A stretch of DNA of 28,676 bases from a virus, in IMG/VR virus record IMGVR_UViG_3300036761_001519, positions 1-28,676 of that record. The stretch is one strand, 5' to 3'. This document shows positions 7,087-26,936 of the stretch, piece after piece. Under the pieces are notes generated by a model. The model worked only from the letters and a program-made list of their open reading frames with translations, searched no databases and was not told the DNA's origin. The first letter of the stretch is position 1, and each line of letters opens with the position of its first letter. Position numbers and translations under genes: made by a program.

Positions 7087-7197
7087 TTATTCCTCCGTAG
7101 CAAATTCTTTTAAATATCTTTTTACTGTTGCTGCTTCTTTTTTAAAATCATCTTCTCCACAACCTATTGGGTCTCCAAAATATAATATTTTTATCAT
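7087..7197 (-). CDS. Small ORF, 36 aa, in the Rad50/Mre11 operon
   Basis: This short gene has a strong SD (AAGGAG) seven bases before its ATG, overlaps the stop of the Rad50 N-half gene (ATGA), and ends just before the next ATG. The peptide begins MIKILYFGDPIGCGEDDF and continues with a Lys/Glu-rich helix. No family is recognised. The SD and exact fit of both ends make it likely to be translated. Confidence 0.55.
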   Translation of the reverse strand: MIKILYFGDPIGCGEDDFKKEAATVKRYLKEFATEE

Positions 7198-9551
7198 TTT
7201 ATCTCCTTATTTAACGGGCACTCAACATTATGAAAAGGACAAATTTTTATATTCTTTAGTATCTCTTTTTTCTTTTCTTCATTATCCTTTATTTCTTTAT
7301 TATATTTGTCTACTTTAAGTTTACTGTTTTGTAAACTTTCATTTATAGTAAACAAGTTTTCTTTCCATTTTATTAACTTATCTAATCTTAATGAATCATT
7401 GATATACTTTTTTATATCTATATTTGGAATCTTAATCGTTGATAAAGATTTTTTTACTATATTTAATTCATTATTAACTTTCTTAATTTCTTTCTGAATA
7501 ACTAAATAATTGTCGAATTTAACTATATTTTGTTTTATTGCTTTAATAATATCAGCAGGAATAGATTTAATTAAACCAATAGATTTCTTAGTCTCAAATA
7601 ACTGATTATTAACCTTATTTAAACTAACTTGACATTCTTGCAACTTTACTAATTTGTCATTTAATATTTTAATTTCATTAACTTGCTTGGTAAATAAAAT
7701 GGATAATTGTTCTTGGGTTTCTCTTTGCTTCTTTATATTAACTAACGAAGTGCTTAATTCCTCAATTTGTTGTGTAACTGATTTCTCGTCTCTACCAACC
7801 TGGAGAATATCTTTATTAAGAGATTGCATTGCTTGGTCTAAAATATCGTTACCAGTGAGTTTATTAAAGAGTTTCTGCCGGAAAGTACCTGATTTGTCCA
7901 ACAAAAACGGCATGGCGATTTGATTAGCTATATTAAGAATAATCTTATCCTGGTCTATTTCTATGGGAATAAACTTAATAATGTCTTGAATATCGGCAGG
8001 TAAAGTGCCACCAGTAGCGTTATACTCTTTTTCCTCGCCTTTAATAGTAAGTTTGTATGAATTTACTGTTGAAGTTTTTATTCTCTCAATAATTATTCCA
8101 CTATCTAAGGTAACTTTAACCGAAGTTTTCTTGCTTCCGGTTTTACGAACCACTTCTCCTCTAAGTTGGTCGGGGTAAAATGTCCAACGGATAGCACGAA
8201 TAATAGTAGAATTATGAACAATAAAATCATTAGCAATGAAATTTTTATTGTCCTCAATTTGAATATCATATGTAGGTTCTTCTCCAATATATTTTATTTC
8301 TTTAATTTTATCCCAATAAATATCATTAAATACATATTTTTCTAAATTTTTTAAATTATATTGTTTGATTAATTTTTGTGCAAAATAACGTCCAAAATAT
8401 ATATCCCTTTTGTCTTGATAAAAACTTTTCCCTATTGCTTTGGTAAAAATATCTCTAATTTGTTTTGGCAAAATATAATGTTTACTATTTTGCATATTTT
8501 GTTTAATTTCCGCCCGTTTTTTTAGTAAAGATTGTTTTTTTCCAATTAAGGGTATATATTTGTAAAAAAGTTCTATATCCTCTTTTCTACTAATGAATAA
8601 TATATATGCAGGAAAAACTTTACCGGATTGATTTTTGCATTGTTTATATGAAATTCTTGATAAAATGCTAAACCTTAATAATAAGTGTTGAAATCCATAA
8701 ATTATTTCTTTAGAAGTAGAACAAAATTCCAACTGATTTAATGAATTTGGGATATATCCATCACAACTAAATAATGCTCCTAAAAAATTGGCAAGAATTT
8801 TTAATGAAGAATTATAAATTTCTTGGGGGATAAATTTTGTCCTATGATTCTTACCGTTAAGACCATATTTAACTAATAATTTTTGCAGTTCGGATGGTCG
8901 CATATGACGATTGGGAGCGTTTAATGGTTTAGAACATCTGATTTGATAAGTAATATGATGTAATCTTTTTATAATATGGTGTTCTCCGCACCCCCTTTTT
9001 AAACAATATAAAAAATCTTCTATTATTTTTTCATCTGCATTTGTAAATCCAGGAGTGGAATTAATAATACACCCATCTCCTATCAAATAACCTAATAATT
9101 TTGCTTGTTCAATTGATAAATTATTATTTTGTTGATTAGGTATAGGTATCCTTTGATTTACACCTATTAAATCTCTTGTTACAAAATTTTTCAATTCTTT
9201 CCATCCTTCGGATGATAAGAATTTATGATTATTTGTAGCTTTTATCATTCTACCCGAAGTTGTGGTGATTTGATATATAGATTTTATACCATTTGACTGA
9301 ATAGCAACAATATTTTTTTCTTCTAATAGATTTTGTTTATTTAAACTCCATACTTTCCATAAATGAGGTAAATTAATTAAATCTTTAATAGAAATTAAAG
9401 TACCATTAATGGGAGAAGGAATTAATGTGTCTCCAGATAAACATTTTCCACAATCTGTAGCACCAACAATAACATTCACTCCTTTAGTAAAGTTAAGGAT
9501 TAAATGTTCGTGCTTCTGGAAGTTATTTAATTCTAATTGAGTTATATTCAT
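7194..9551 (-). CDS. Rad50/SbcC (gp46-type) ATPase, N-terminal half, with intein
   Basis: The 785-residue precursor begins with a Rad50/SMC head: MNITQLELNNFQKHE, then GATDCGK at 30-36, interrupted by a 411-residue intein (37-447), resuming with STIIRAIRW. Splicing would restore the P-loop GATDCGKS and give a 374-residue protein. After the head lobe a long coiled coil runs to the C-terminus, which ends with CPFHNVECP, a Cys pair like a zinc hook. No signature motif or Walker B is present; these are on the separate gene at 4160-4762. Inference: the Rad50 subunit is assembled from two polypeptides joined near the hook. No clear SD precedes the ATG, so translation may be coupled to the upstream gene. 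Confidence 0.85.
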   Translation of the reverse strand: MNITQLELNNFQKHEHLILNFTKGVNVIVGATDCGKCLSGDTLIPSPINGTLISIKDLINLPHLWKVWSLNKQNLLEEKNIVAIQSNGIKSIYQITTTSGRMIKATNNHKFLSSEGWKELKNFVTRDLIGVNQRIPIPNQQNNNLSIEQAKLLGYLIGDGCIINSTPGFTNADEKIIEDFLYCLKRGCGEHHIIKRLHHITYQIRCSKPLNAPNRHMRPSELQKLLVKYGLNGKNHRTKFIPQEIYNSSLKILANFLGALFSCDGYIPNSLNQLEFCSTSKEIIYGFQHLLLRFSILSRISYKQCKNQSGKVFPAYILFISRKEDIELFYKYIPLIGKKQSLLKKRAEIKQNMQNSKHYILPKQIRDIFTKAIGKSFYQDKRDIYFGRYFAQKLIKQYNLKNLEKYVFNDIYWDKIKEIKYIGEEPTYDIQIEDNKNFIANDFIVHNSTIIRAIRWTFYPDQLRGEVVRKTGSKKTSVKVTLDSGIIIERIKTSTVNSYKLTIKGEEKEYNATGGTLPADIQDIIKFIPIEIDQDKIILNIANQIAMPFLLDKSGTFRQKLFNKLTGNDILDQAMQSLNKDILQVGRDEKSVTQQIEELSTSLVNIKKQRETQEQLSILFTKQVNEIKILNDKLVKLQECQVSLNKVNNQLFETKKSIGLIKSIPADIIKAIKQNIVKFDNYLVIQKEIKKVNNELNIVKKSLSTIKIPNIDIKKYINDSLRLDKLIKWKENLFTINESLQNSKLKVDKYNKEIKDNEEKKKEILKNIKICPFHNVECPLNKEIK
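8211..9443 (-). mobile_element. Intein with LAGLIDADG homing endonuclease in Rad50 Walker A
   Basis: The insert encodes 411 residues. It begins with Cys (CLSGDTLI, block A), has the TxxH block B (ATNNHKFLSSEGW), two LAGLIDADG-type helices (LLGYLIGDGCI and FLGALFSCDGYI) and ends with block F/G (YDIQIEDNKNFIANDFIVHN) before Ser+1. All splicing residues (Cys1, block-B His, penultimate His, Asn, Ser+1) are present, so it is probably splicing-competent. Both endonuclease motifs keep an acidic residue. It lies between K36 and the P-loop Ser, a very conserved target site. Confidence 0.93.
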
Positions 9552-11551: not shown

Positions 11552-13957
11552 TCATTTAGTTTCAATCGGTTGCGTTAAATTAGCGCTTTTTGTCTTCTTT
11601 TTAACAGGAATAATTCCTTGTTTTAGCTTATTATCGCCTTCCTGGAGCGTTCCTGTGCTTAAATCTAAGGCAATTTTAGCATTCTTTCGAGGTTTTCTCA
11701 CTTTTTGAGGCATTATTACTGATAAATCCCATTTCATAGCTTCAAAAATGGTTTCTATGATATTGTAAATATTGCGTTCCGTCATTTTTTCATAATCAAT
11801 TTCTGTAATATGAGATTTATTTTTGTCATCAAAAGCCAATGCATTTTTCTTAGGGTCTTCTGATTTAACATAAATCCACAAATAATTGTCTCCTACTCTC
11901 TTATTTAATTTTGGAGCATTTTTTAATGCTCTCACAAATACTGGAGGTTCTTTAGAATAAGTTTTGCCATGCTTATTTGTAACTTCTGTTTTATAAAGTT
12001 CTGGTGCTTGACTTAATTTAGCAGGAAAACTTATTTCTTCAATAGGCAAAGTTTTTAATCTTTCTATCTCTAATTTAATCCAATCAATAATCTGCTCCTG
12101 GGATTCTTTATTTAATATTTTATCTATTAAAGTATCTTGAAATTTGGCAATAAATATTGTAGAATCCTTCCTCTTGACTTGGATGCCCTTAATTTCTTCT
12201 TTTAAACCTTTTGTTGTTCTCATCCAACCCTTGTACCTACACATAGTGAGAATAAGTATCTTTTCAAAATTACCTTTTTTACTTATACTTATATTTACTT
12301 TTTTATTGAATCTTTCCATTGACCATTGCTGAATAGTTTTATTTAAAAAATCTGATAAATCCTGATTGCTATCTTCTACGAACACAGAATCGGTGTCTAC
12401 ATACACAACTTTATATCCGGCTTCTTCTGTTTTAGTTTTTAAATATAATAATAAATCTCTAATAGAACTTGTTATCATACTTGCCAACCGAGCATCATAA
12501 AGTCTGAAGAATCTATTTCCTAAAACTCCCCAAAATGAGTTAATTATATTTTTTATACCGTCATAAGTTAATTCGATGCCTTTAAATTCTTCTGATTCTG
12601 GATTAGTATCTTCCATTAATTTTTTAAACATTGCTTTCTTAACCAATAATTTCTTAACTGCGGAAGGCAATAAAGCATTTTCATCTTGTTTAACTAAATA
12701 TGTATTTTTAATTTCTTTGGTTTCCCTATCATTAACATTAACCTCAATAACATTATCCCCTTTTTCATTCACAATATTAGAAGAATCTAAACATAAATCT
12801 TGAAGTATCTGTGGGTATGCACTGTTTAAATCGTAGTCTCCAATATTAAATAGAGCACCAGATTGGAACGTTTCCCTGAAGGCACCCTCAAACTCATCTG
12901 TGGTTGTTTCGTACGATTTTCCGTTAGGAAGCACTATCTTCTTTTCTTTTGCTTCCTGTAATAATAAAGCATCTATAATTCTACTATTAAATCCAAAGTC
13001 TTCCCAATTGACTTTAGCAAATCTCCTAATTTCATCAAATAATGGGATAAAATGAAATTTTTCTTTTTCTAATTTAACCATAAGCTCCACATCATCTATA
13101 TTTCTTAATTTAACTTCTTCTCTTATCTTGCTAAAATCTACTTCTTTATATTTCTTGCCTACTTTTAAATATTTTTCAGCTATTGCATCTAATCCATAAC
13201 TCTTTTCACTTTTGTAAATTTTCTTCATCCAAGTTAGATAATCAACAATAGATGTTCCTGCCGGATAAAAATTATTATAATCTTTCTTGCCCCCTCTTAC
13301 TTTCCCTATAGGACTAATTGCTGTGGCAAAATTATTATAATCACTTTCCTTCTCAAACAAATATTTTTGAATTCCTTCTAATTTTTGAAATCTTGAATAT
13401 AAGTAAGGATAATCAAAATCTTCCATGTAGTATCCCAATAATAAATCGAAACATGCTTTCCTCATGTATTCAATAAAATCTTTAAATAATAATACTTCTG
13501 CATTCGCCAATTCTGCGCCATAATCGCCAATAAACCAATTCCTAATCTTATCATATTTACTGTTATAAATAGTAATTGAAGTTACCGGAAATTTAGCAGT
13601 CAATGGGTCTGGAAATTCATTTTCCCTTTTTAAAACTTCGATATCAATCATTGCCCATTTTATATTACTTTTTTCAAACTTGTCTATCTTGTCTACAACA
13701 TATTTTTTACAATAGTGAATGTCTGCCTCATAACTTTCATGACTTCTTATTTCTCTTATTTCTCTGGGGTCATTGACGGTAATTTTTCTAACTTTTTTTC
13801 CATCTATTGCAGTATATTCTCCTTTAGGGTCTAATTCATAATAGTAAGGAGCATAGGAATTATCTTTAACAATTTTCAATGCACCATCGTCCTCTCTACA
13901 AAAGAGGTATATGGTTTTCTTAGAATTATAAACATTAACTATAGAAAGGTTATTCAT
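11552..13957 (-). CDS. Family-B DNA polymerase
   Basis: The 801-residue protein has all hallmark motifs. The 3'-5' exonuclease shows MIDIEVL (D105, E107), GYYMEDFDYPYL (FD at 181-182) and NIDDVELM (near 288). The polymerase shows motif A DYDLNSAYP (D376), motif B KNIINSFWG (K469-G477) and motif C VYVDTDSV (D521, D523). It is therefore a replicative, proofreading polymerase of the phage/archaeal B type. Motif C keeps the DTD triad, so it should be active. The C-terminus has a basic tail (PQKVRKPRKNAK and KKKTKS). It starts three bases after the ClpP-like gene, with only a weak SD. Confidence 0.95.
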   Translation of the reverse strand: MNNLSIVNVYNSKKTIYLFCREDDGALKIVKDNSYAPYYYELDPKGEYTAIDGKKVRKITVNDPREIREIRSHESYEADIHYCKKYVVDKIDKFEKSNIKWAMIDIEVLKRENEFPDPLTAKFPVTSITIYNSKYDKIRNWFIGDYGAELANAEVLLFKDFIEYMRKACFDLLLGYYMEDFDYPYLYSRFQKLEGIQKYLFEKESDYNNFATAISPIGKVRGGKKDYNNFYPAGTSIVDYLTWMKKIYKSEKSYGLDAIAEKYLKVGKKYKEVDFSKIREEVKLRNIDDVELMVKLEKEKFHFIPLFDEIRRFAKVNWEDFGFNSRIIDALLLQEAKEKKIVLPNGKSYETTTDEFEGAFRETFQSGALFNIGDYDLNSAYPQILQDLCLDSSNIVNEKGDNVIEVNVNDRETKEIKNTYLVKQDENALLPSAVKKLLVKKAMFKKLMEDTNPESEEFKGIELTYDGIKNIINSFWGVLGNRFFRLYDARLASMITSSIRDLLLYLKTKTEEAGYKVVYVDTDSVFVEDSNQDLSDFLNKTIQQWSMERFNKKVNISISKKGNFEKILILTMCRYKGWMRTTKGLKEEIKGIQVKRKDSTIFIAKFQDTLIDKILNKESQEQIIDWIKLEIERLKTLPIEEISFPAKLSQAPELYKTEVTNKHGKTYSKEPPVFVRALKNAPKLNKRVGDNYLWIYVKSEDPKKNALAFDDKNKSHITEIDYEKMTERNIYNIIETIFEAMKWDLSVIMPQKVRKPRKNAKIALDLSTGTLQEGDNKLKQGIIPVKKKTKSANLTQPIETK

Positions 13958-13959
13958 TT

Positions 13960-14532
13960 TTATTTAATTACTCTGTCTACTATTCCTTTTTCCAAACAAC
14001 TATCTGCTGATAACCATAGTTCTCCGGTATTTATTTTTTGCAAATCTTTCTTTGCTAATTTGGTATGTGCAGTCAAAATTCTTTCTGTCATTTTATCCAA
14101 ATGAATTAAAAATGTAGTCCTATCCTTAATAAAGTTTAAATAATCGGCGTGCCCCTCTGATAAAGGATGATTCATCCAATAAGAATTATAATAAATTTGC
14201 CTATGTTTACCCATAACACTTATTAATGCAGCCATACTGCAAGCATGTCCACTTATAATAGTTGTTATAGGTGCGCTGCTTTGTTCCATTGCATTAATAA
14301 TACTAAATCCGCACGATACATCTCCTCCTGGGGAATTGATTTCTAATATGATTGGTTGTTTTTTATCTATAATATTCATTGCTTTAATTTTGGTAACTAC
14401 CATTTCTGCGGAACAAGGTTCTATTACGTTATAAAGAATGATATGCCTTTCTTTATTTAAAATTCTAAGATAATATTCGTCGTTGTATTTATCTTCTTTT
14501 TCTACAATTATTTCTTCTTCTGTTCTTTTCAT
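13960..14532 (-). CDS. ClpP-like serine protease
   Basis: The 190-residue protein has the ClpP/crotonase fold pattern: EINSPGGDVSCG oxyanion-loop region (about 65-75), GHACSMAA with the nucleophile (S99) and WMNHP with the catalytic histidine (H122). By eye, the Asp of the ClpP triad aligns with Glu in GELWLS (E171), a conservative change. Phage ClpP-like proteins often act as head-maturation or regulatory proteases. This one sits beside the DNA polymerase rather than head genes. No Clp ATPase is seen in the window. It overlaps the HExxH gene by four bases (ATGA). Confidence 0.8.
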   Translation of the reverse strand: MKRTEEEIIVEKEDKYNDEYYLRILNKERHIILYNVIEPCSAEMVVTKIKAMNIIDKKQPIILEINSPGGDVSCGFSIINAMEQSSAPITTIISGHACSMAALISVMGKHRQIYYNSYWMNHPLSEGHADYLNFIKDRTTFLIHLDKMTERILTAHTKLAKKDLQKINTGELWLSADSCLEKGIVDRVIK

Positions 14533-14936
14533 TTTAACTCCTTTAAAATTTTTCTAATAGCCTTTGAATGTTCCGGATATGTCATTTCCCATTGAATATT
14601 TATACATCTCTTAAGTTGATTTATTCTATGTTTAAACTTCTCTGGTAGAAATTTTTTTAAATTTCTTAATGCAAATTTTTCTGCTTTGTATTCTTGAAAA
14701 CGGCTAGTATTTCTTATTCTACAGTGATTGTAGTAAATATGTCCTAGTTCATGGAACAATACTGGTAATAAATCTTCTTCTTTCATTCCAAAAAAGGTAA
14801 TGCTATGTCCTCCTTTTTTTAACTGCGCTTGTCCATAAACCCAATCATCTTCTTTTTTAATATGAATAGAAATATTCTTAAACCCTAATTTTTTAATCCA
14901 ATATCTAGATTGTCTTAATATCTCTATTCTTTTCAT
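14529..14936 (-). CDS. HExxH putative metallopeptidase (paralog of 5260-5709)
   Basis: This 135-residue protein has FHELGHIYY (H62, E63, H66) and a downstream glutamate in KAEKFAL (E86), like a gluzincin-type active site. It shares this core and the following KKFLP segment with the protein at 5260-5709, so the two probably arose by duplication or from a common phage family. N- and C-terminal parts differ. It overlaps the HNH and ClpP-like genes by four bases each. Function is unknown. Confidence 0.7.
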   Translation of the reverse strand: MKRIEILRQSRYWIKKLGFKNISIHIKKEDDWVYGQAQLKKGGHSITFFGMKEEDLLPVLFHELGHIYYNHCRIRNTSRFQEYKAEKFALRNLKKFLPEKFKHRINQLKRCINIQWEMTYPEHSKAIRKILKELK

Positions 14937-15436
14937 TTTCCATGAATTAAATTATGGTGTTTTTTACAAAGTGTTATTAAATTTATAAGTTTATGCGCTT
15001 TGCATACATTGTACATATTATAAATAACCACTGGAAAAATATGATGCACTTCTAATTTTTTAGAAGAAAGGCACCATCTACATTTATGGTCGTCTCGTTT
15101 TAATACTTTAAGCCTATTAATCATCCATATTCCGTTGTATCTATTTTTACCTTTCCATCCCGGATTCAATTTTCCTCGTTTGAATTTGCTATCCATTTGT
15201 ATATAATGTTTTCTACATAATTTGGCAGCATATGAAATTTTTACATGGCATATCTTACATTTAAAAGGATATTGAATATGAGTAGATTCTATCCAACATA
15301 TTCTGCAAAAATGAGACCTAGATGAAAGAGAAACGGGGTGTCCGCATTTTAAACATTTTGTAATCGTATATCTTCCATGTTTATACAATGGATTTTTTGA
15401 ACTCCGTAAAATTTTTAAATATTCTTTTCTATTCAT
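14933..15436 (-). CDS. HNH homing endonuclease with zinc fingers
   Basis: The C-terminal part is a classic HNH nuclease: CRWCLSSKKLEVHHI, then NLITLCKKHHNLIH. The N-terminal half holds several Cys pairs (KCLKCGH, FCRICW, KCKICH) forming zinc-finger modules typical of phage free-standing homing endonucleases. The ATG at 15436 is preferred over an in-frame TTG two codons upstream. The start overlaps the transporter stop by eight bases and there is no clear SD. It is probably a mobile gene inserted between the MFS transporter and the HExxH gene. Confidence 0.85.
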   Translation of the reverse strand: MNRKEYLKILRSSKNPLYKHGRYTITKCLKCGHPVSLSSRSHFCRICWIESTHIQYPFKCKICHVKISYAAKLCRKHYIQMDSKFKRGKLNPGWKGKNRYNGIWMINRLKVLKRDDHKCRWCLSSKKLEVHHIFPVVIYNMYNVCKAHKLINLITLCKKHHNLIHGK

Positions 15437-16616
15437 TTTCAATTTTTATTTTGTTAATTAATGGGAGACATAAAAAACTAGTAAATGCCGATAATATTAT
15501 TAAAAATTTTAATCCAACTAAAGGAAATAGCCATGCCCCTACTAAAGAACTTGCTGTGCCTGTGGCTAAATTAGATACCCCGCATAATAAAGCAAAAGAA
15601 GTTGCTTCTTTTCCTTTTAAAGAATTTTTTGCCATTATAGAAAGCACAATTAAATGAACAAACATACCCATTATACCAAATAAAATTCCATAGACTATTG
15701 CTGATTTGGGTGTATAATAAAGGTACGCCAATGAAGTTAATGCGCCTAAGAATACTGAATAATATAACCATTTCTTAGTATTTATTTTCTTACAACATTT
15801 AAAGAAAAGGATTGCTCCTATAATTTCAAATACTGAACAAATTGCTCCCAATGTTCCCATCCATGTTCCTGACCAATGGAAATTATTGCGTTGAATAAAT
15901 TGTAAGGGCGTACCAAAAGAAGGGCTAAATTTATAAAGGAATAAGAATACGCACCCTATTAAAAATGATTTATTGGCAAATAATTCCTTATATGAAAGCA
16001 GGGTGGCAAGAGGCTTTTGATTGTTTCCAGTTGCAATTAATCGTTTCGCATTGCCACTTTTATATTTTAAAACAATCCCAATAATAATTAAATAAATAGG
16101 TATCAAACAAAGGTAAGCAAATCTATAAGACAAATGGTCGGCTATGTATCCTCCGCTTAATCCTACAATTATTGAAGCTATTGTTATTGCTATCCATTGA
16201 CAAGCCTGAATAGTATCACAAGATTTTGTTTCTTTGCCCTGCACACACATAAGACCATCAACCGAAACATCCCTAAGAGCAGAATTAAAATTACCAATAA
16301 TCCCCATCACTATAATCATGGTAACTGGCAACCATAAGGATAAACCGAAGAATAATGAAATTGCTATGCTACCAAACAGAGATAGGATAATCCACTTTTT
16401 GTTAGATAGGAAGTTATCCACAATAAATCCGTAAATTGGTTTAATAACCCAAGCCAATCCAGTAAGAGCAGAAATATACATTATCTTCTCTGGAGTAAAG
16501 CCTAATTTTTCTTTAAGATAAAAGAAAAATGCCAAGCCAGGTAAAGATTCTATGCCCTGCGTAAAATAAATACTTGCCGAAAGGACATAAATCCAGAAAA
16601 GTTTTTTATTTTTCAT
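15429..16616 (-). CDS. MFS transporter, folate-biopterin (BT1)-like
   Basis: This 395-residue protein is almost entirely hydrophobic, with about 12 predicted membrane helices. It shows BT1/FBT-family features: VIKPIYGFIVD (59-67 region, loop after helix 2), NSALRDVSVDGLM (111-123) and a polar loop before helix 5. It starts with a short cytoplasmic end, not a cleaved signal. The family transports folates, pterins or related solutes; substrate prediction here is weak. AmpG-like MFS is an alternative. The open reading frame appears complete and intact. A full-length carrier is unusual in a phage genome. It lies two bases after the 159-aa gene. Confidence 0.75.
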   Translation of the reverse strand: MKNKKLFWIYVLSASIYFTQGIESLPGLAFFFYLKEKLGFTPEKIMYISALTGLAWVIKPIYGFIVDNFLSNKKWIILSLFGSIAISLFFGLSLWLPVTMIIVMGIIGNFNSALRDVSVDGLMCVQGKETKSCDTIQACQWIAITIASIIVGLSGGYIADHLSYRFAYLCLIPIYLIIIGIVLKYKSGNAKRLIATGNNQKPLATLLSYKELFANKSFLIGCVFLFLYKFSPSFGTPLQFIQRNNFHWSGTWMGTLGAICSVFEIIGAILFFKCCKKINTKKWLYYSVFLGALTSLAYLYYTPKSAIVYGILFGIMGMFVHLIVLSIMAKNSLKGKEATSFALLCGVSNLATGTASSLVGAWLFPLVGLKFLIILSAFTSFLCLPLINKIKIENE

Positions 16617-16617
16617 T

Positions 16618-17097
16618 TTATCTTTCTAATCTAGCTCTCTCACTATAATATTTTAGTTTGCTCTGTAATACCATAATATCAATATCAATCTGTCCAATAT
16701 AACCTCTAAGTTGATTTCTTAATACTCTTAGATTTTGGACGCTCAATTCTGCTTCTCTTTCTGCCGGAGCACCTACAAATTTATCTCCCTTTTCTTCTAT
16801 TGCATGTTTTTTGTTTATATAATATACATTTGCATTTCCGTCCATCTCTGCTTCAAATGCTTCTGCAATAGGTGATAAAAATCCTCTATATCCTAATAAC
16901 TTATCCAATTTTTCATCTACTTGATTACCATCTACAACTTCTCTGGCTTTAAGTGCTAAATGAATCTTATCAAGAATGCCAAAAATATTCTCACAATATT
17001 TATATAGTTTAGCAACTCCTTCTTCATTTTTTAATGCTTCTCTTACTTCTGCTGTTGATTTTGCTTCTATTTGTTTTTTAATCGGTTGTTCTTCCAC
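16618..17097 (-). CDS. Hypothetical protein, 159 aa
   Basis: The protein is mostly helical and charged, with a long C-terminal helix (NLRVLRNQLRGYIGQIDIDI) suggesting a coiled-coil or oligomer. No domain is recognised. The start is GTG at 17097, supported by SD AAGGAG. It follows the small 44-aa gene and RecA, so a recombination-related role is possible but only by neighbourhood. Confidence 0.65.
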   Translation of the reverse strand: MEEQPIKKQIEAKSTAEVREALKNEEGVAKLYKYCENIFGILDKIHLALKAREVVDGNQVDEKLDKLLGYRGFLSPIAEAFEAEMDGNANVYYINKKHAIEEKGDKFVGAPAEREAELSVQNLRVLRNQLRGYIGQIDIDIMVLQSKLKYYSERARLER

Positions 17098-17098
17098 T

Positions 17099-17233
17099 TT
17101 ATTTCTCCTTATTTTTATAATATTGCTCTGCTAATAATGCTAATTTTAACCACTTCTCTTTTCCTATTAAATCGCCCTTTTTCTCGCATTCATCTGCATT
17201 ATGCATTGCTCTTTCCACCATTTTTTCTTCCAT
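17099..17233 (-). CDS. Small ORF, 44 aa
   Basis: The short gene starts with ATG overlapping the RecA stop by one base (TAATG) and ends just before the GTG of the 159-aa gene. The peptide is Lys/Glu-rich and helical (MEEKMVERAMHNADECEKKG start). An AAGG lies before the ATG. No family is recognised. Confidence 0.55.
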   Translation of the reverse strand: MEEKMVERAMHNADECEKKGDLIGKEKWLKLALLAEQYYKNKEK

Positions 17234-18357
17234 TATTCTACCTTAATCCCCTCTTCAAAAAAGAAGGGTATATGCATATCCTGTCCTTCTACACAATTAG
17301 AAATTTGCGATTTCTCAATCTTCAATACTAAATCAAATCCGACTTTTGTCTCTACCGTTTTTGTTTTTTCTATTTCATCACCTTCATCATTAAGTTCTTT
17401 AACTTTAATTTTTTCCTTCGTAACAGGTGCATCCGCACCTTGTCCACGTCTAAGTTTTATAATCAATCTGCAATTATGAAGTAAAGCATGTCCGCCAGTT
17501 AAAGTTTCAAGTTTAACAAATCCCGATAAGTCCATACGGGATTGTCCTATTAAAATTACGGCACATTTTGCATCAGCTACAAATGCTGTAGCCATTTCAA
17601 AAAATTGAGTTAATTTTCTGGCTCTAAGTGCCATAGTGTCCTGGGAAACCGATTTTTCTGTCTGGGCTTTGCCCTCATACAACTCACCCTTCGGGGCTAT
17701 ACCATGTAATGAATCAAAAACAATTAAATCTGCTACCTTTTCTCTGCATAATTTAATCACTATGTCTAACCCTTCTTCCAAAGTCTCTACATCAATAACT
17801 ATCAATTTTTCTGTATCTACTCCTCGCTTCTGTGCCCAAAGAGAATCATAGCTTCTCTCTCCATTTACATAAGCGCAGGTTCCACCGGATTTTTGTACAA
17901 CAGAAATTAAATCCAATACCATTGTAGTTTTGGCACAACCTTTACTACCCCAAATACAAGTGTATGTGCCCGTAGGAATACCCCCACCAGTAAAAGCAGT
18001 AAGATGTTTATTCTTAAATGGTATTCTACCCCTAGCTTCAATTGTGTTGGCAAATTTAATAGAAGTTTTTCCAAACTTCTTATTCAAATCTCTAAGAGTA
18101 TTATTAAGTCTATCCTTGCGTTCTTCCTGTTCTTTAGTTAATTGAACATTGTTTTGTTCAACTAAAGGATTGGTTAAAATTATTTCCTCTTCTTTCATTT
18201 GTATTAATCCCTTTTTAATCAATTCTTGCTCAACTTTTTTAGGAATTTTTAAATTAGGAATACCTGCTTCTACTATTTTTTTTAATTCTTTTTCTGTTTT
18301 TTCTAAAATTGATTTTTCTTTATTCTTTTTCCCTTTTGCGCCTTTTGTTCTACCCAT
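17233..18357 (-). CDS. RecA/UvsX-like recombinase
   Basis: The 374-residue protein contains a RecA-type ATPase: Walker A GSKGCAKTT (about 137-145), then ATP-site region VNGERSYD, Walker B DLIVFDSL and LIGQSRMDL at the L2/motif-4 position. It should form filaments on ssDNA and promote strand exchange. The start is placed at 18357 because GGAGG lies just upstream and the earlier in-frame ATG would run into the upstream gene. The first ~100 residues are a long Lys-rich extension beyond a normal RecA N-terminus. The P-loop has Ala where RecA usually has Gly (CAKTT versus SGKTT). Confidence 0.9.
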   Translation of the reverse strand: MGRTKGAKGKKNKEKSILEKTEKELKKIVEAGIPNLKIPKKVEQELIKKGLIQMKEEEIILTNPLVEQNNVQLTKEQEERKDRLNNTLRDLNKKFGKTSIKFANTIEARGRIPFKNKHLTAFTGGGIPTGTYTCIWGSKGCAKTTMVLDLISVVQKSGGTCAYVNGERSYDSLWAQKRGVDTEKLIVIDVETLEEGLDIVIKLCREKVADLIVFDSLHGIAPKGELYEGKAQTEKSVSQDTMALRARKLTQFFEMATAFVADAKCAVILIGQSRMDLSGFVKLETLTGGHALLHNCRLIIKLRRGQGADAPVTKEKIKVKELNDEGDEIEKTKTVETKVGFDLVLKIEKSQISNCVEGQDMHIPFFFEEGIKVE

Positions 18358-18358
18358 T

Positions 18359-18652
18359 TTATTTTCCTCCAAGGAAGCGTTGAGAACCATGACCATAATT
18401 TTTGATTGGTCTTTTTAACCAATCTTCCAAATTACTACATATCATGCTTGTTTTTGTTATAATTCTAATTTTAGTTATATTTAATTGTTGTAATTGTTGT
18501 AAAATTTCTTCTTGAATACCATACCCTTTTTCTTTTATCATAAAGTGTTTATTATTAACTATTTTTACAAATTCTTTAAATGTAGAATATTCATTTATTG
18601 CTCCGGCTAGAACATTCTTACCTTTTTTTGGGTCATAACAATATAATTTCAT
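18359..18652 (-). CDS. Hypothetical protein, 97 aa
   Basis: The start at 18652 (MKLYCYDPKKGKNV) is preferred because AAAGGA lies at proper spacing; a longer in-frame start at 18685 lies within the small zinc-finger gene. The protein is basic and ends KNYGHGSQRFLGGK. No domain is recognised. It ends one base before the RecA start. Confidence 0.6.
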   Translation of the reverse strand: MKLYCYDPKKGKNVLAGAINEYSTFKEFVKIVNNKHFMIKEKGYGIQEEILQQLQQLNITKIRIITKTSMICSNLEDWLKRPIKNYGHGSQRFLGGK

Positions 18653-19376: not shown

Positions 19377-20009
19377 CTATTTGGTTAATCCTGTTAGTGC
19401 AAGTACAAAAGCATCCATTTCGTCTAAATCTTCTATAGTAACACCAAATGTCATTGTTAAATATTCACTCACTAATTCTTTTATATCTATCTTCTTTTTT
19501 TCACCTTTTTTATGTAATAATTTTCCTGCTTTATTTTTAGTATCTCTACTATATACTGCTGCTGTAATATTGCTTTCTTCTATTTGTTTATTCTTATTAA
19601 ATTTTATTGCTGCCCTTGCGGAATTTGGTAAAATAAAAAATATATAATCTGCATATTTTCTAAATACTATCCAAACTAGAGCAGAAAATCTTGCCAAATG
19701 TTTAAGACATTCCACGTTAGCCCCGAACCAGCAATCTTCCACCGAGACTATTTTATATTCTTTATATTTTAAATCTTGTTTAAATTTATCCAATGAATTA
19801 ATAAAAAATTCCATTCGATGTATAATATCATCCTTCGGAGAAGTAGTTATTTTATCTAATTTGTCTATGTAAATTTTTGTGTTGTCTGTCCTAAGAATAC
19901 AAATACCCGTAAAATGCTCTGCTACATCAAATCCAATGCAAATAGCATTCTTACGAATTTTCTTTTCTATCGTTTCCTCAACTTCTTTTATATCAATGGA
20001 TTTATTCAT
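19377..20009 (-). CDS. RuvC-like Holliday junction resolvase (RNase H fold)
   Basis: The 210-residue protein shows the RuvC-type catalytic pattern: IGFDVAEHFTG (D28), SVEDCWFG (E91) and the C-terminal DEMDAFVLAL (D196, D199). This fits RuvC/RNase H-fold resolvases that cut branched DNA. Between the second and third motifs there is a basic stretch (KFNKNKQ and KKGEKKK) that may bind DNA. It overlaps the primase-helicase start by four bases. Specificity cannot be assigned. Confidence 0.78.
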   Translation of the reverse strand: MNKSIDIKEVEETIEKKIRKNAICIGFDVAEHFTGICILRTDNTKIYIDKLDKITTSPKDDIIHRMEFFINSLDKFKQDLKYKEYKIVSVEDCWFGANVECLKHLARFSALVWIVFRKYADYIFFILPNSARAAIKFNKNKQIEESNITAAVYSRDTKNKAGKLLHKKGEKKKIDIKELVSEYLTMTFGVTIEDLDEMDAFVLALTGLTK

Positions 20010-21946
20010 TTTTCCTCTTCTTTACCTGTACTGATATTTTCTTCTGTTAAACTTTCTGTTCTATTTTCATCTACACGAGTTAATTTCTTAGTAGTCCAAT
20101 CATATACACAAGGTATTTTTACCATTCTTTTCTTATTGGCGCTTTCTCTAATTTTAAATATTTCAAAACATCCAGAAACTCCATCAGATTCTTCGTCATA
20201 TGCATATTTTACTGAAAGAGCACTAAAATGATTAATTAAGTTAGGAGCAAAAAAACTTCCGTCTTCTTTTAACTGAACAAATACAATCAATATACCTTTA
20301 TTCTTACTTAACTGCTTGCTTAAATGTTCAAAAATTAAATGAGTATCTGCAAATGAAGTAGGGTTCAGCCAGTCCAGGATAGTAACTGCATTCTTTTCAA
20401 ATTCTACTTCCATAGGATTATAATATTCTTTATTATACACAAAATCTTTTTCCGTTAATCCAAGTTGGAGTGCAATTTTAGCAAATCTGCTTCCTGTTTC
20501 TAAGTTAATATAATACGGTTTTATTCCTTGTTTAACTAATTGCTCTATAATATTCATTGCTATATGAGTTTTTCCCACTCCGGTCTTTGCGCCAACAATA
20601 ATTAAATCCCCATATGCAAATGCCCCTAATCCATCAAAATATGGCAATTTAAAATTAATAGGTTTGGAGCAATCTATTAAATTGCTTTCCCATTCCATTT
20701 TCCGAATAAGAAACAATAGTTGCCTTTTCTGCTGAATATACTCTTCTTTTTTCAAATAGTTTATTACTTTATCTAGTCTTTGTTTTTCTTCTGCTTTTAA
20801 TCTAGTATCTCCATAAATCATTCGTTCCATATCTCTACGAGTAGCTTCTCCTACTTCTTTTAATTGTTGCAAAATTCTATTAGCCAGTTCTTTCTCATCA
20901 AAAATATTATAATCCCCAATAGAATTAATAATATTTCTCATTTCTGAATATGGTAAATTAGGAGAACAGCTAATTTTATTCATCGCACCTAAAACAAATT
21001 CTGTGTCAGATAAATTTAATTGTTTCCTTAATATACATCCCAAATGAAACAAATAATCATGCCTGCCTTCTCCTTCACCCAATAATGCTTTCTGATAAGT
21101 TTCATTAACTATAGTTTCTTTTGTTTTTTCTGAATTAGATTTTAAATCTTTGACTGTTATAAATTTATTAAGATAATCTTTTAATTCTTGGGGCATTTTA
21201 AGTATAGGATTAGAATTTATCCATTTTCTCTGAATACCATTGATAATAGAAGGATATACCACTACCTGCCCATTACCAGTTTCTATGTCTATTTTAAGAC
21301 TATCTATTCTTGTCTTTGGCATATCCTCTTCCACCTGATAAACCAAATGAAATCCTTTACTTGATTCCTGTATTAATGTTTCTCCCATAATTTTTACTAT
21401 TTCTGAAGGAATAGGTTTCTGGTCAATATCAATAATGGTTATTTTACTTAATTTACAGTTGACCCCTATATTAAGAAAACTATTTGTCCATTCTCTCCAC
21501 TCTTTCTTGTCTTTATGTTCTTTTATTTGCCATTCAGATTCAATAGGAATTTTATCATTAGGTCTAATAGGCACTAAGCTAAATCCGTATTTTTTATAAT
21601 CTTCAAATACTTTGTCTATATCTTCTTCATCTTTGGCAGTTAGAATATTATTTATTTTAAATAGTTTCTTAAGGTAAGTAATTATTTTCTCATTTTCCCA
21701 TGTTGCTTTTTCTGGCTCATTTTTCTTGACAATGGACAATAGTGTAAACTTCTCACCTTTACGAGGGCATTGCGTATGAATACATTTTATCAAATGTGTT
21801 TGTGCCACATTCTGCGCAGTAAATTCTCCGCAGAAAGGACAAATAGTAGCAAACACTTTTCCTCTACCTTCGTATTTGATTTTGAATTGCTGACAATATT
21901 TCTTAATAATCTCTACTGACAAGATTAATGCTTTGTAATTCGTCAT
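20006..21946 (-). CDS. Primase-polymerase/helicase fusion
   Basis: The 646-residue protein has three parts. Residues 30-65 form a CHC2-like zinc ribbon (CPFCG, C55, C60). Residues 115-245 look like a bifunctional primase-polymerase (PrimPol) domain: GFSLVPIRPND, IIDIDQ (D173, D175) and SSKGFHLVY (H200). Residues 430-620 form a RecA/DnaB-like ATPase with Walker A GAKTGVGKT (452-460). It is therefore likely the replicative primase-helicase. The Walker B segment (ILIVFVQLKE) lacks an obvious DE, so the helicase part may be divergent. It overlaps its neighbours by a few bases. Confidence 0.85.
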   Translation of the reverse strand: MTNYKALILSVEIIKKYCQQFKIKYEGRGKVFATICPFCGEFTAQNVAQTHLIKCIHTQCPRKGEKFTLLSIVKKNEPEKATWENEKIITYLKKLFKINNILTAKDEEDIDKVFEDYKKYGFSLVPIRPNDKIPIESEWQIKEHKDKKEWREWTNSFLNIGVNCKLSKITIIDIDQKPIPSEIVKIMGETLIQESSKGFHLVYQVEEDMPKTRIDSLKIDIETGNGQVVVYPSIINGIQRKWINSNPILKMPQELKDYLNKFITVKDLKSNSEKTKETIVNETYQKALLGEGEGRHDYLFHLGCILRKQLNLSDTEFVLGAMNKISCSPNLPYSEMRNIINSIGDYNIFDEKELANRILQQLKEVGEATRRDMERMIYGDTRLKAEEKQRLDKVINYLKKEEYIQQKRQLLFLIRKMEWESNLIDCSKPINFKLPYFDGLGAFAYGDLIIVGAKTGVGKTHIAMNIIEQLVKQGIKPYYINLETGSRFAKIALQLGLTEKDFVYNKEYYNPMEVEFEKNAVTILDWLNPTSFADTHLIFEHLSKQLSKNKGILIVFVQLKEDGSFFAPNLINHFSALSVKYAYDEESDGVSGCFEIFKIRESANKKRMVKIPCVYDWTTKKLTRVDENRTESLTEENISTGKEEEK

Positions 21947-24329: not shown

Positions 24330-24581
24330 TTACTTTCCTTCTCCACTTTCGGGAGTTAATAGTTTCTCTATATTAGCCACCATATCGCCTACAGTTACAA
24401 ATTTCTCTGCGTCTTCATCTAATATAGAAATGTTAAATATATTTTCACATTCCATGATTATCTCCACAGAATCCAATTCGTCAATGTTTAAATCTACTAA
24501 TTTGGATTCTGCTTTGATATCTTCTACTTTTAAATTCATGGTTTGTGCAATTATTTCTATTACTTTAGCCAAAGTTTCCAT
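24330..24581 (-). CDS. acpP: Acyl carrier protein
   Basis: The 83-residue acidic helical protein has the carrier signature NIDELDSVEII with the phosphopantetheine serine (S38), ending in a normal helix (DEDAEKFVTVGDMVANIEKLL). The start is placed at 24581 because GGGAGG lies just upstream; an in-frame TTG 18 bases earlier contains this SD and is unlikely. By family it carries acyl groups on a 4'-phosphopantetheine arm added by a host transferase. No fatty-acid or polyketide synthesis partner is visible here. It lies between the 5'-3' exonuclease and a small membrane-protein gene. Confidence 0.88.
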   Translation of the reverse strand: METLAKVIEIIAQTMNLKVEDIKAESKLVDLNIDELDSVEIIMECENIFNISILDEDAEKFVTVGDMVANIEKLLTPESGEGK

Positions 24582-24606
24582 TATTTTACCTCCCTTCAAT
24601 TAAAAT

Positions 24607-26366: not shown

Positions 26367-26936
26367 TTATTCATTCTTTTTCCAAATTTCCGATGTTAAA
26401 AATGGAAAATCATCTAGTTCGATTGGTAAATAACCATGCGACACATCTAATTTAGTTTGAATAATAGCAAATAAATTCCATAGCAATGCTGAAGAATGCG
26501 GTTCGTCTTCTTTTTTATCAATACATGCCCATAAATGGCGCATTGCTGAATCATACATCCTACTAATTGGCTGCCCTTTTCTCCAATTATTTTTAGCATA
26601 TTTTTTTGCACCTTGTTGAAAATGAATTGCTACTGCCCTCATAGGAGAAGAATAACAACCATCTGTAGTTTCTTTAATATATTCTATCGTATATTCAATA
26701 GCGGTATAAAGATAATTAAGAGTATCTTCTCTTACAATAGAAACCTTTGAAAACATTAATAGATTGTTTTCAATCAAATCTAAAGTAGAGGGAAAATTAT
26801 CTTTAGTGTTATGATTAGTCTTATAATGAAACAATGCTTCTCCTGGAATCAAATGTGGCTGCCCTTTTCCTTCATCTGTATCTCTTACACTTCCAGAATT
26901 AAATTCTTGCCTTTTTCCTGAATCTTTTATTTCCAT
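26367..26936 (-). CDS. dATP/dGTP diphosphohydrolase-type protein (DUF5664-like)
   Basis: The 189-residue protein contains HLIPGEALFHY near residue 28 and the conserved GAKKYAKNNWRKGQPISRMY block, then AMRHLWAC and a downstream helix (SALLWNLFAII). This is the dGTP_diPhyd_N/DUF5664 pattern, an all-alpha NTP pyrophosphatase-related family found in phages. It probably acts on purine deoxynucleotides. Between the two blocks is an insert of about 70 residues (KVSIVREDTLNYLY and on) not typical of the family. It overlaps the 2-deoxyribosyltransferase-like gene by one base. Confidence 0.75.
   Translation of the reverse strand: MEIKDSGKRQEFNSGSVRDTDEGKGQPHLIPGEALFHYKTNHNTKDNFPSTLDLIENNLLMFSKVSIVREDTLNYLYTAIEYTIEYIKETTDGCYSSPMRAVAIHFQQGAKKYAKNNWRKGQPISRMYDSAMRHLWACIDKKEDEPHSSALLWNLFAIIQTKLDVSHGYLPIELDDFPFLTSEIWKKNE

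Follow-up and report, generated by a model that had tools for sequence, protein, structure and literature searches.

A BT1-type MFS carrier encoded among the replication genes of an uncultured tailed-phage lineage

The stretch of viral DNA analyzed here (the window: 28,676 bases, representing a single IMG/VR virus record) encodes an intact BT1-like MFS carrier with 12 helices, whose gene is part of a tight string with replication genes and is conserved in a tailed-phage lineage, where it is subject to purifying selection. We lean, if only modestly, toward the view that this protein is a phage-maintained accessory secondary carrier of the BT1/FBT branch that is made together with the replication proteins and takes up a small organic nutrient or cofactor.

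Results

The carrier gene and its surroundings

The carrier gene (15429..16616, minus strand) starts with an ATG codon and codes, with no internal stop codon, for 395 amino acids. Judged by its open reading frame, by Pfam, PHROG and NCBIfam profiles, and by hydropathy, the product is an MFS carrier of the BT1/PHROG 2034 type with 12 predicted helices, and the family average calculated from 28 homologues likewise displays 12 hydropathy peaks. Since both motifs highlighted in the initial annotation, KPIYGFIVD (residues 59-67) and NSALRDVSVDG (residues 111-121), are present as well, its description of a complete carrier with about 12 helices is borne out. All 28 sequences compared share residues Y17, G21, W56, K59, D67, D116, D120, Q137, E337, and N349.

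The gene resides in a tightly packed string of minus-strand genes between those for a UvsX/RecA-like recombinase (17233..18396, minus strand) and the phage family B DNA polymerase PolB (11552..13957, minus strand), both recognized by profile. The position originally noticed, between the RecA and polymerase clusters and co-directional with them, is thereby confirmed. A PrimPol-helicase replication protein (20006..21946, minus strand; assigned by profile), a 5'-3' exonuclease, and homing endonucleases are encoded on the same strand around it. On its upstream side, a gap of just 1 nt separates the MFS start from the gene for a conserved phage protein of 159 amino acids with no assigned function (16618..17097, minus strand), the stop and start codons being joined in the sequence TAAAATG; homologues of this protein are found near PolB in related phages. 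On the other side, an HNH homing-type endonuclease ORF (14933..15442, minus strand), which contains an internal ATG at 15436, overlaps the 3' end of the MFS gene. It is followed by the genes for a small M48-like metalloprotease-type protein (14529..14936, minus strand; family F16), whose homologues lie near the MFS gene in seven contigs when the window is counted in, and for a ClpP-type protease (13960..14532, minus strand), identified by profile and a recurrent neighbor of the carrier.

The window also holds genes for RmlD, an NTP transferase, and an acyl-carrier-type protein with a phosphopantetheine attachment site (24330-24599). A match to the N-terminal domain of dATP/dGTP diphosphohydrolase (26367-26936) hints at a possible link to nucleotide pools or base modification, and an apparent intein interrupts the Walker A motif (GATDCGK/CLSGDT...VHN/ST) of an SbcC/gp46-like nuclease (7194-9551).

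Family assignment

The Pfam BT1 profile (PF03092) aligns with residues 19-384 of the carrier over profile positions 1-407 of 432; the score of 60.5 bits (1.6e-16) exceeds a gathering cut-off that, at 22 bits, is low and is also reached in control genomes such as E. coli. The BT1-like label of the initial annotation consequently stands. BT1 is matched by all 28 carrier members scanned (best value 1.1e-44), four distant members scoring 123-153 bits, and MFS membership is evident from a score of 50.9 bits against the MFS_1 cut-off of 33.4 bits in combination with the 12 hydropathy peaks. PHROG 2034, a cataloged phage protein family to which no function has been assigned, is matched over its full length (6.6e-24; residues 2-387 on profile positions 8-394 of 406), and 27 of the 28 members match it too. 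Given these values for BT1 and PHROG 2034, and the homologues in 28 further contigs, chance is excluded as the source of the match.

Neither of the two curated NCBIfam cut-offs is reached, as the carrier scores 43.8 bits with the folate/biopterin transporter model TIGR00788 (cut-off 216.4 bits) and about 34 bits (34.2 and 33.7) with the AmpG model TIGR00901 (cut-off 350 bits). Hence, the protein is BT1-like but belongs to neither the curated FBT nor the curated AmpG set. Its similarity to the AmpG muropeptide permease is distant and spans residues 51-363; an identity as AmpG is ruled out by the score. With the FBT family (PF03092, TC 2.A.71), represented by BT1, FT1, and AdoMetT1 of Leishmania and by Slr0642 of Synechocystis, the carrier shares the full-length profile match and the 12 predicted helices, and the FBT motif positions KPxxG...D and DVxxDG show no or almost no variation in the phage carrier set. 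Unlike the FBT family, it is encoded by a phage, falls far short of the curated cut-off, and has no assigned cargo. In Slr0642, residues critical for transport have reportedly been mapped by mutagenesis.

Distant profile matches of the carrier family to proteins in the PDB comprise EmrB, VMAT, and SLC37A4. The first two of these, and the weak secondary similarity that some members show to MFS models for drug efflux, would be in keeping with a protein that removes a toxic metabolite or a drug-like host compound, or that alters the physiology of the host membrane. As such matches are weaker and occur in fewer members than the match to BT1, we regard a role in efflux or permeability as very unlikely.

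Distribution and recurrent neighborhood

Carrier homologues with 28-67% identity are present in 28 viral contigs besides the window, with contig sizes of 14-180 kb. A PolB search yielded 21 related IMG/VR contigs, nine of which hold a carrier homologue (G020 and G021 being near-duplicates), and alignment searches extended the set to the 28 contigs; the carrier family considered here comprises 29 sequences, one of them split. Two of the long relatives, of 97 and 96 kb, have the carrier gene at a central position within a tailed-phage-like genome. Profiles detected tail-fiber matches and a phage deformylase in the 96-kb relative, while its presumed terminase and portal, named from the appearance of their sequences, gave no profile match; the terminase profile PHROG 2 was matched in only two contigs.

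Among GenBank phages, tblastn returned no match to the window carrier at E <= 1e-5, with sub-threshold matches appearing only at E <= 10, and none to three of its relatives at E <= 1e-3. The earlier notion that such a carrier is rare as a phage gene thus needs qualification: GenBank phages yielded none, but in the uncultured lineage studied here the gene recurs. It is missing from the long relatives G006 (101 kb), G015 (104 kb), and G008 (54 kb), and it must therefore be viewed as accessory; most contigs are fragments, and its lack in a short contig carries no meaning. Because the gene is missing from the 101- and 104-kb relatives, any benefit that it confers should be conditional.

The order peptide deformylase, M50 protease, MFS, ClpP, metallophosphatase recurs among the relatives. 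At a distance of at most four genes from the MFS gene, a metallophosphatase is encoded in 14 contigs, ClpP in 11, the M50 protease and peptide deformylase in nine each, an M48-type protein in seven, an M42 aminopeptidase in six, a LOG-type protein in four, and PQ-loop and LicD proteins in three each. Of 37 contigs considered over their whole length, 24 encode deformylase and 20 encode M50 (one M50 match lying below the cut-off); strict co-occurrence is lacking, which rules out an obligate tie of the carrier to either of them. The recurrence of deformylase, M50, and ClpP, joined in one branch by the M42 aminopeptidase and the LOG-type protein, suggests that the carrier is part of a host-remodeling and salvage set and not of the replisome. 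In five relatives, a small transport-type gene follows directly downstream of the MFS gene, coding for a PQ-loop protein in three and for a weakly NMN-transporter-like protein in two of them. Separately, we noted an MgtC-family membrane protein (L053:12723-13181) that recurs in several relatives (six loci), and an amidoligase-like protein into which a LAGLIDADG/Hint (intein-type) domain is inserted (L048:6336-7997).

In the initial annotation, the cargo was surmised to be folate- or pterin-like. A specific folate/pterin importer of the FBT type would feed one-carbon metabolism (purines and formyl-Met-tRNA) during infection, and the peptide deformylase so often encoded nearby would suit a formyl-dependent host. 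The BT1 match, which is above the cut-off in the singly scored members and extends to all 28 scanned, speaks for such a function; so does the stretch KPxYGxxSDxFPxFGYRR found by alignment in L049 and L050, which is known from FBT proteins. While folate carriers do exist among FBT proteins (PMC1971073, PMC5114424), these proteins also carry S-adenosylmethionine (PMC5114424). Furthermore, the score with the curated FBT model is far too low, no thymidylate synthase gene was found in 28 of the MFS-carrying contigs, and no pterin or folate gene was seen among the annotated genes around the carrier. Deformylase is also encoded by the MFS-less relatives G006 and G008, so that its link to the carrier is unspecific. 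The proposed cargo thereby finds no support, and we consider a dedicated folate/pterin importer unlikely.

Several members of the window clade possess LicD, IspD-like, and glycosyltransferase genes only a few genes away from the MFS gene, and the window contributes RmlD, the NTP transferase, and the acyl-carrier-type protein. These genes could be taken to indicate a flippase or exporter of lipid or glycan precursors that serves surface-modification genes (LicD, IspD-like, RmlD, and glycosyltransferases) and would remodel the envelope, for instance against superinfection. However, in a distant branch the MFS gene is placed beside those for the M42 aminopeptidase and LOG, with no sugar module among the nearest genes, and the 101-kb relative G006 has LicD but no MFS gene. 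A function of this kind appears quite unlikely to us.

Inheritance, exchange, and origin

In a tree of 28 carrier proteins, all of them from phages, the window carrier is paired with that of L081 (95/85), and the pair is nested in a phage-only clade of about 12. Values for dN/dS of 0.08-0.30 across ten carrier pairs, several of which have a high dS, attest to purifying selection. Distances between the MFS proteins are correlated with those between the PolB proteins (Mantel r 0.44, 20 contigs; reached in none of 5000 permutations). At the same time, the window departs from this pattern: its MFS, RecA, and ClpP proteins are nearest to one branch, whereas PrimPol (clearly) and PolB (slightly) are nearest to the other, which rules out strict vertical inheritance. 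Taken together, the correlation and this discordance indicate that the carrier gene has been both inherited and exchanged among these phages, within which it moves as part of mosaic modules.

In one relative (L076:6882-8972), an HNH endonuclease ORF (7126-7869) splits the MFS gene into ORFs of 84 and 368 amino acids at a point after the conserved KPxxG...D motif. A group I intron can be dismissed, as Rfam gave no match at a threshold as loose as E <= 1 and there is not enough non-coding sequence. In its C-terminal part (L076:8420-8972), the encoded MFS protein is identical to that of L048, while the N-terminal parts clearly differ, a pattern suggesting that the two phages have recently recombined.

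Hosts commonly possess MFS genes and some viral contigs can be contaminated, so that the possibility of a host fragment acquired recently and by accident, or of a contig from a host chromosome, deserves consideration. Yet the carrier has homologues in 28 other viral contigs, falls into a phage-only clade, and evolves under purifying selection; this evidence rules out a host fragment, to which we assign only a minute probability. Moreover, phage replication genes are located on both sides of the carrier gene, its GC3 deviates by no more than 1.2 SD from that of the other genes, and the carrier-bearing 96-kb relative also has tail-fiber genes. Neither of the two findings named at the outset as speaking against a phage gene, a contig derived from a host chromosome or a stray fragment without phage relatives, was made.

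Cellular relatives were sampled poorly. A genome_contigs pattern scan with a five-sequence alignment of distant carrier members detected no cellular relative, which is weak evidence of absence, and a plasmid search gave weak matches only. The BT1-type MFS proteins of Asgard archaea, the only cellular group sampled otherwise, are distant from the carrier. A contig from a Lokiarchaeota MAG bin (L086:1-14405) holds a PolB gene (44% identity) along with further genes of the phage lineage, reflecting either contamination of the bin or an unexpected host link. A bacterial host is indicated, on the other hand, by the recurrent deformylase, which the archaeal controls lack.

Discussion

The arrangement of the carrier gene among replication genes, and the fold family to which its product belongs, lend themselves to a simple model for its role in infection. 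The carrier would be translated during the replication phase, would insert into the inner membrane of the host, and would operate there as an alternating-access secondary transporter. It might then import a small organic nutrient or cofactor at a time when the phage makes heavy demands on host metabolism. Characterized FBT proteins transport folate, biopterin, or S-adenosylmethionine (PMC5114424, PMC1971073), and by this token folate/pterin-type molecules or S-adenosylmethionine are the first candidates for the cargo, a proposal that we put forward tentatively and with well under an even chance of being right.

A more far-reaching and rather doubtful idea is that this uncultured tailed-phage lineage possesses a dedicated module for cofactor import, in which the FBT-type carrier, accompanied in some branches by a small PQ-loop- or NMN-type carrier, would act alongside deformylase and protease genes. 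If this were true, the phage would set the vitamin or one-carbon supply of its host during infection. In the literature searched, we came across neither an FBT-type phage carrier nor such phage-encoded cofactor import.

Phages carry metabolic genes, and other phage-borne transport genes, for instance of the phosphate-binding or PnuC type, are thought to aid infection; they belong to different protein families. An intact 12-helix carrier under selection suggests that the phage changes host uptake during infection, and the maintenance of a full-length secondary carrier across a phage lineage, within a recurrent neighborhood, suggests nutrient uptake as a target of infection. The 29 sequences assembled here, one of them split, provide a testable protein family for a PHROG with no assigned function, and they offer a lead to the metabolite that limits these phages.
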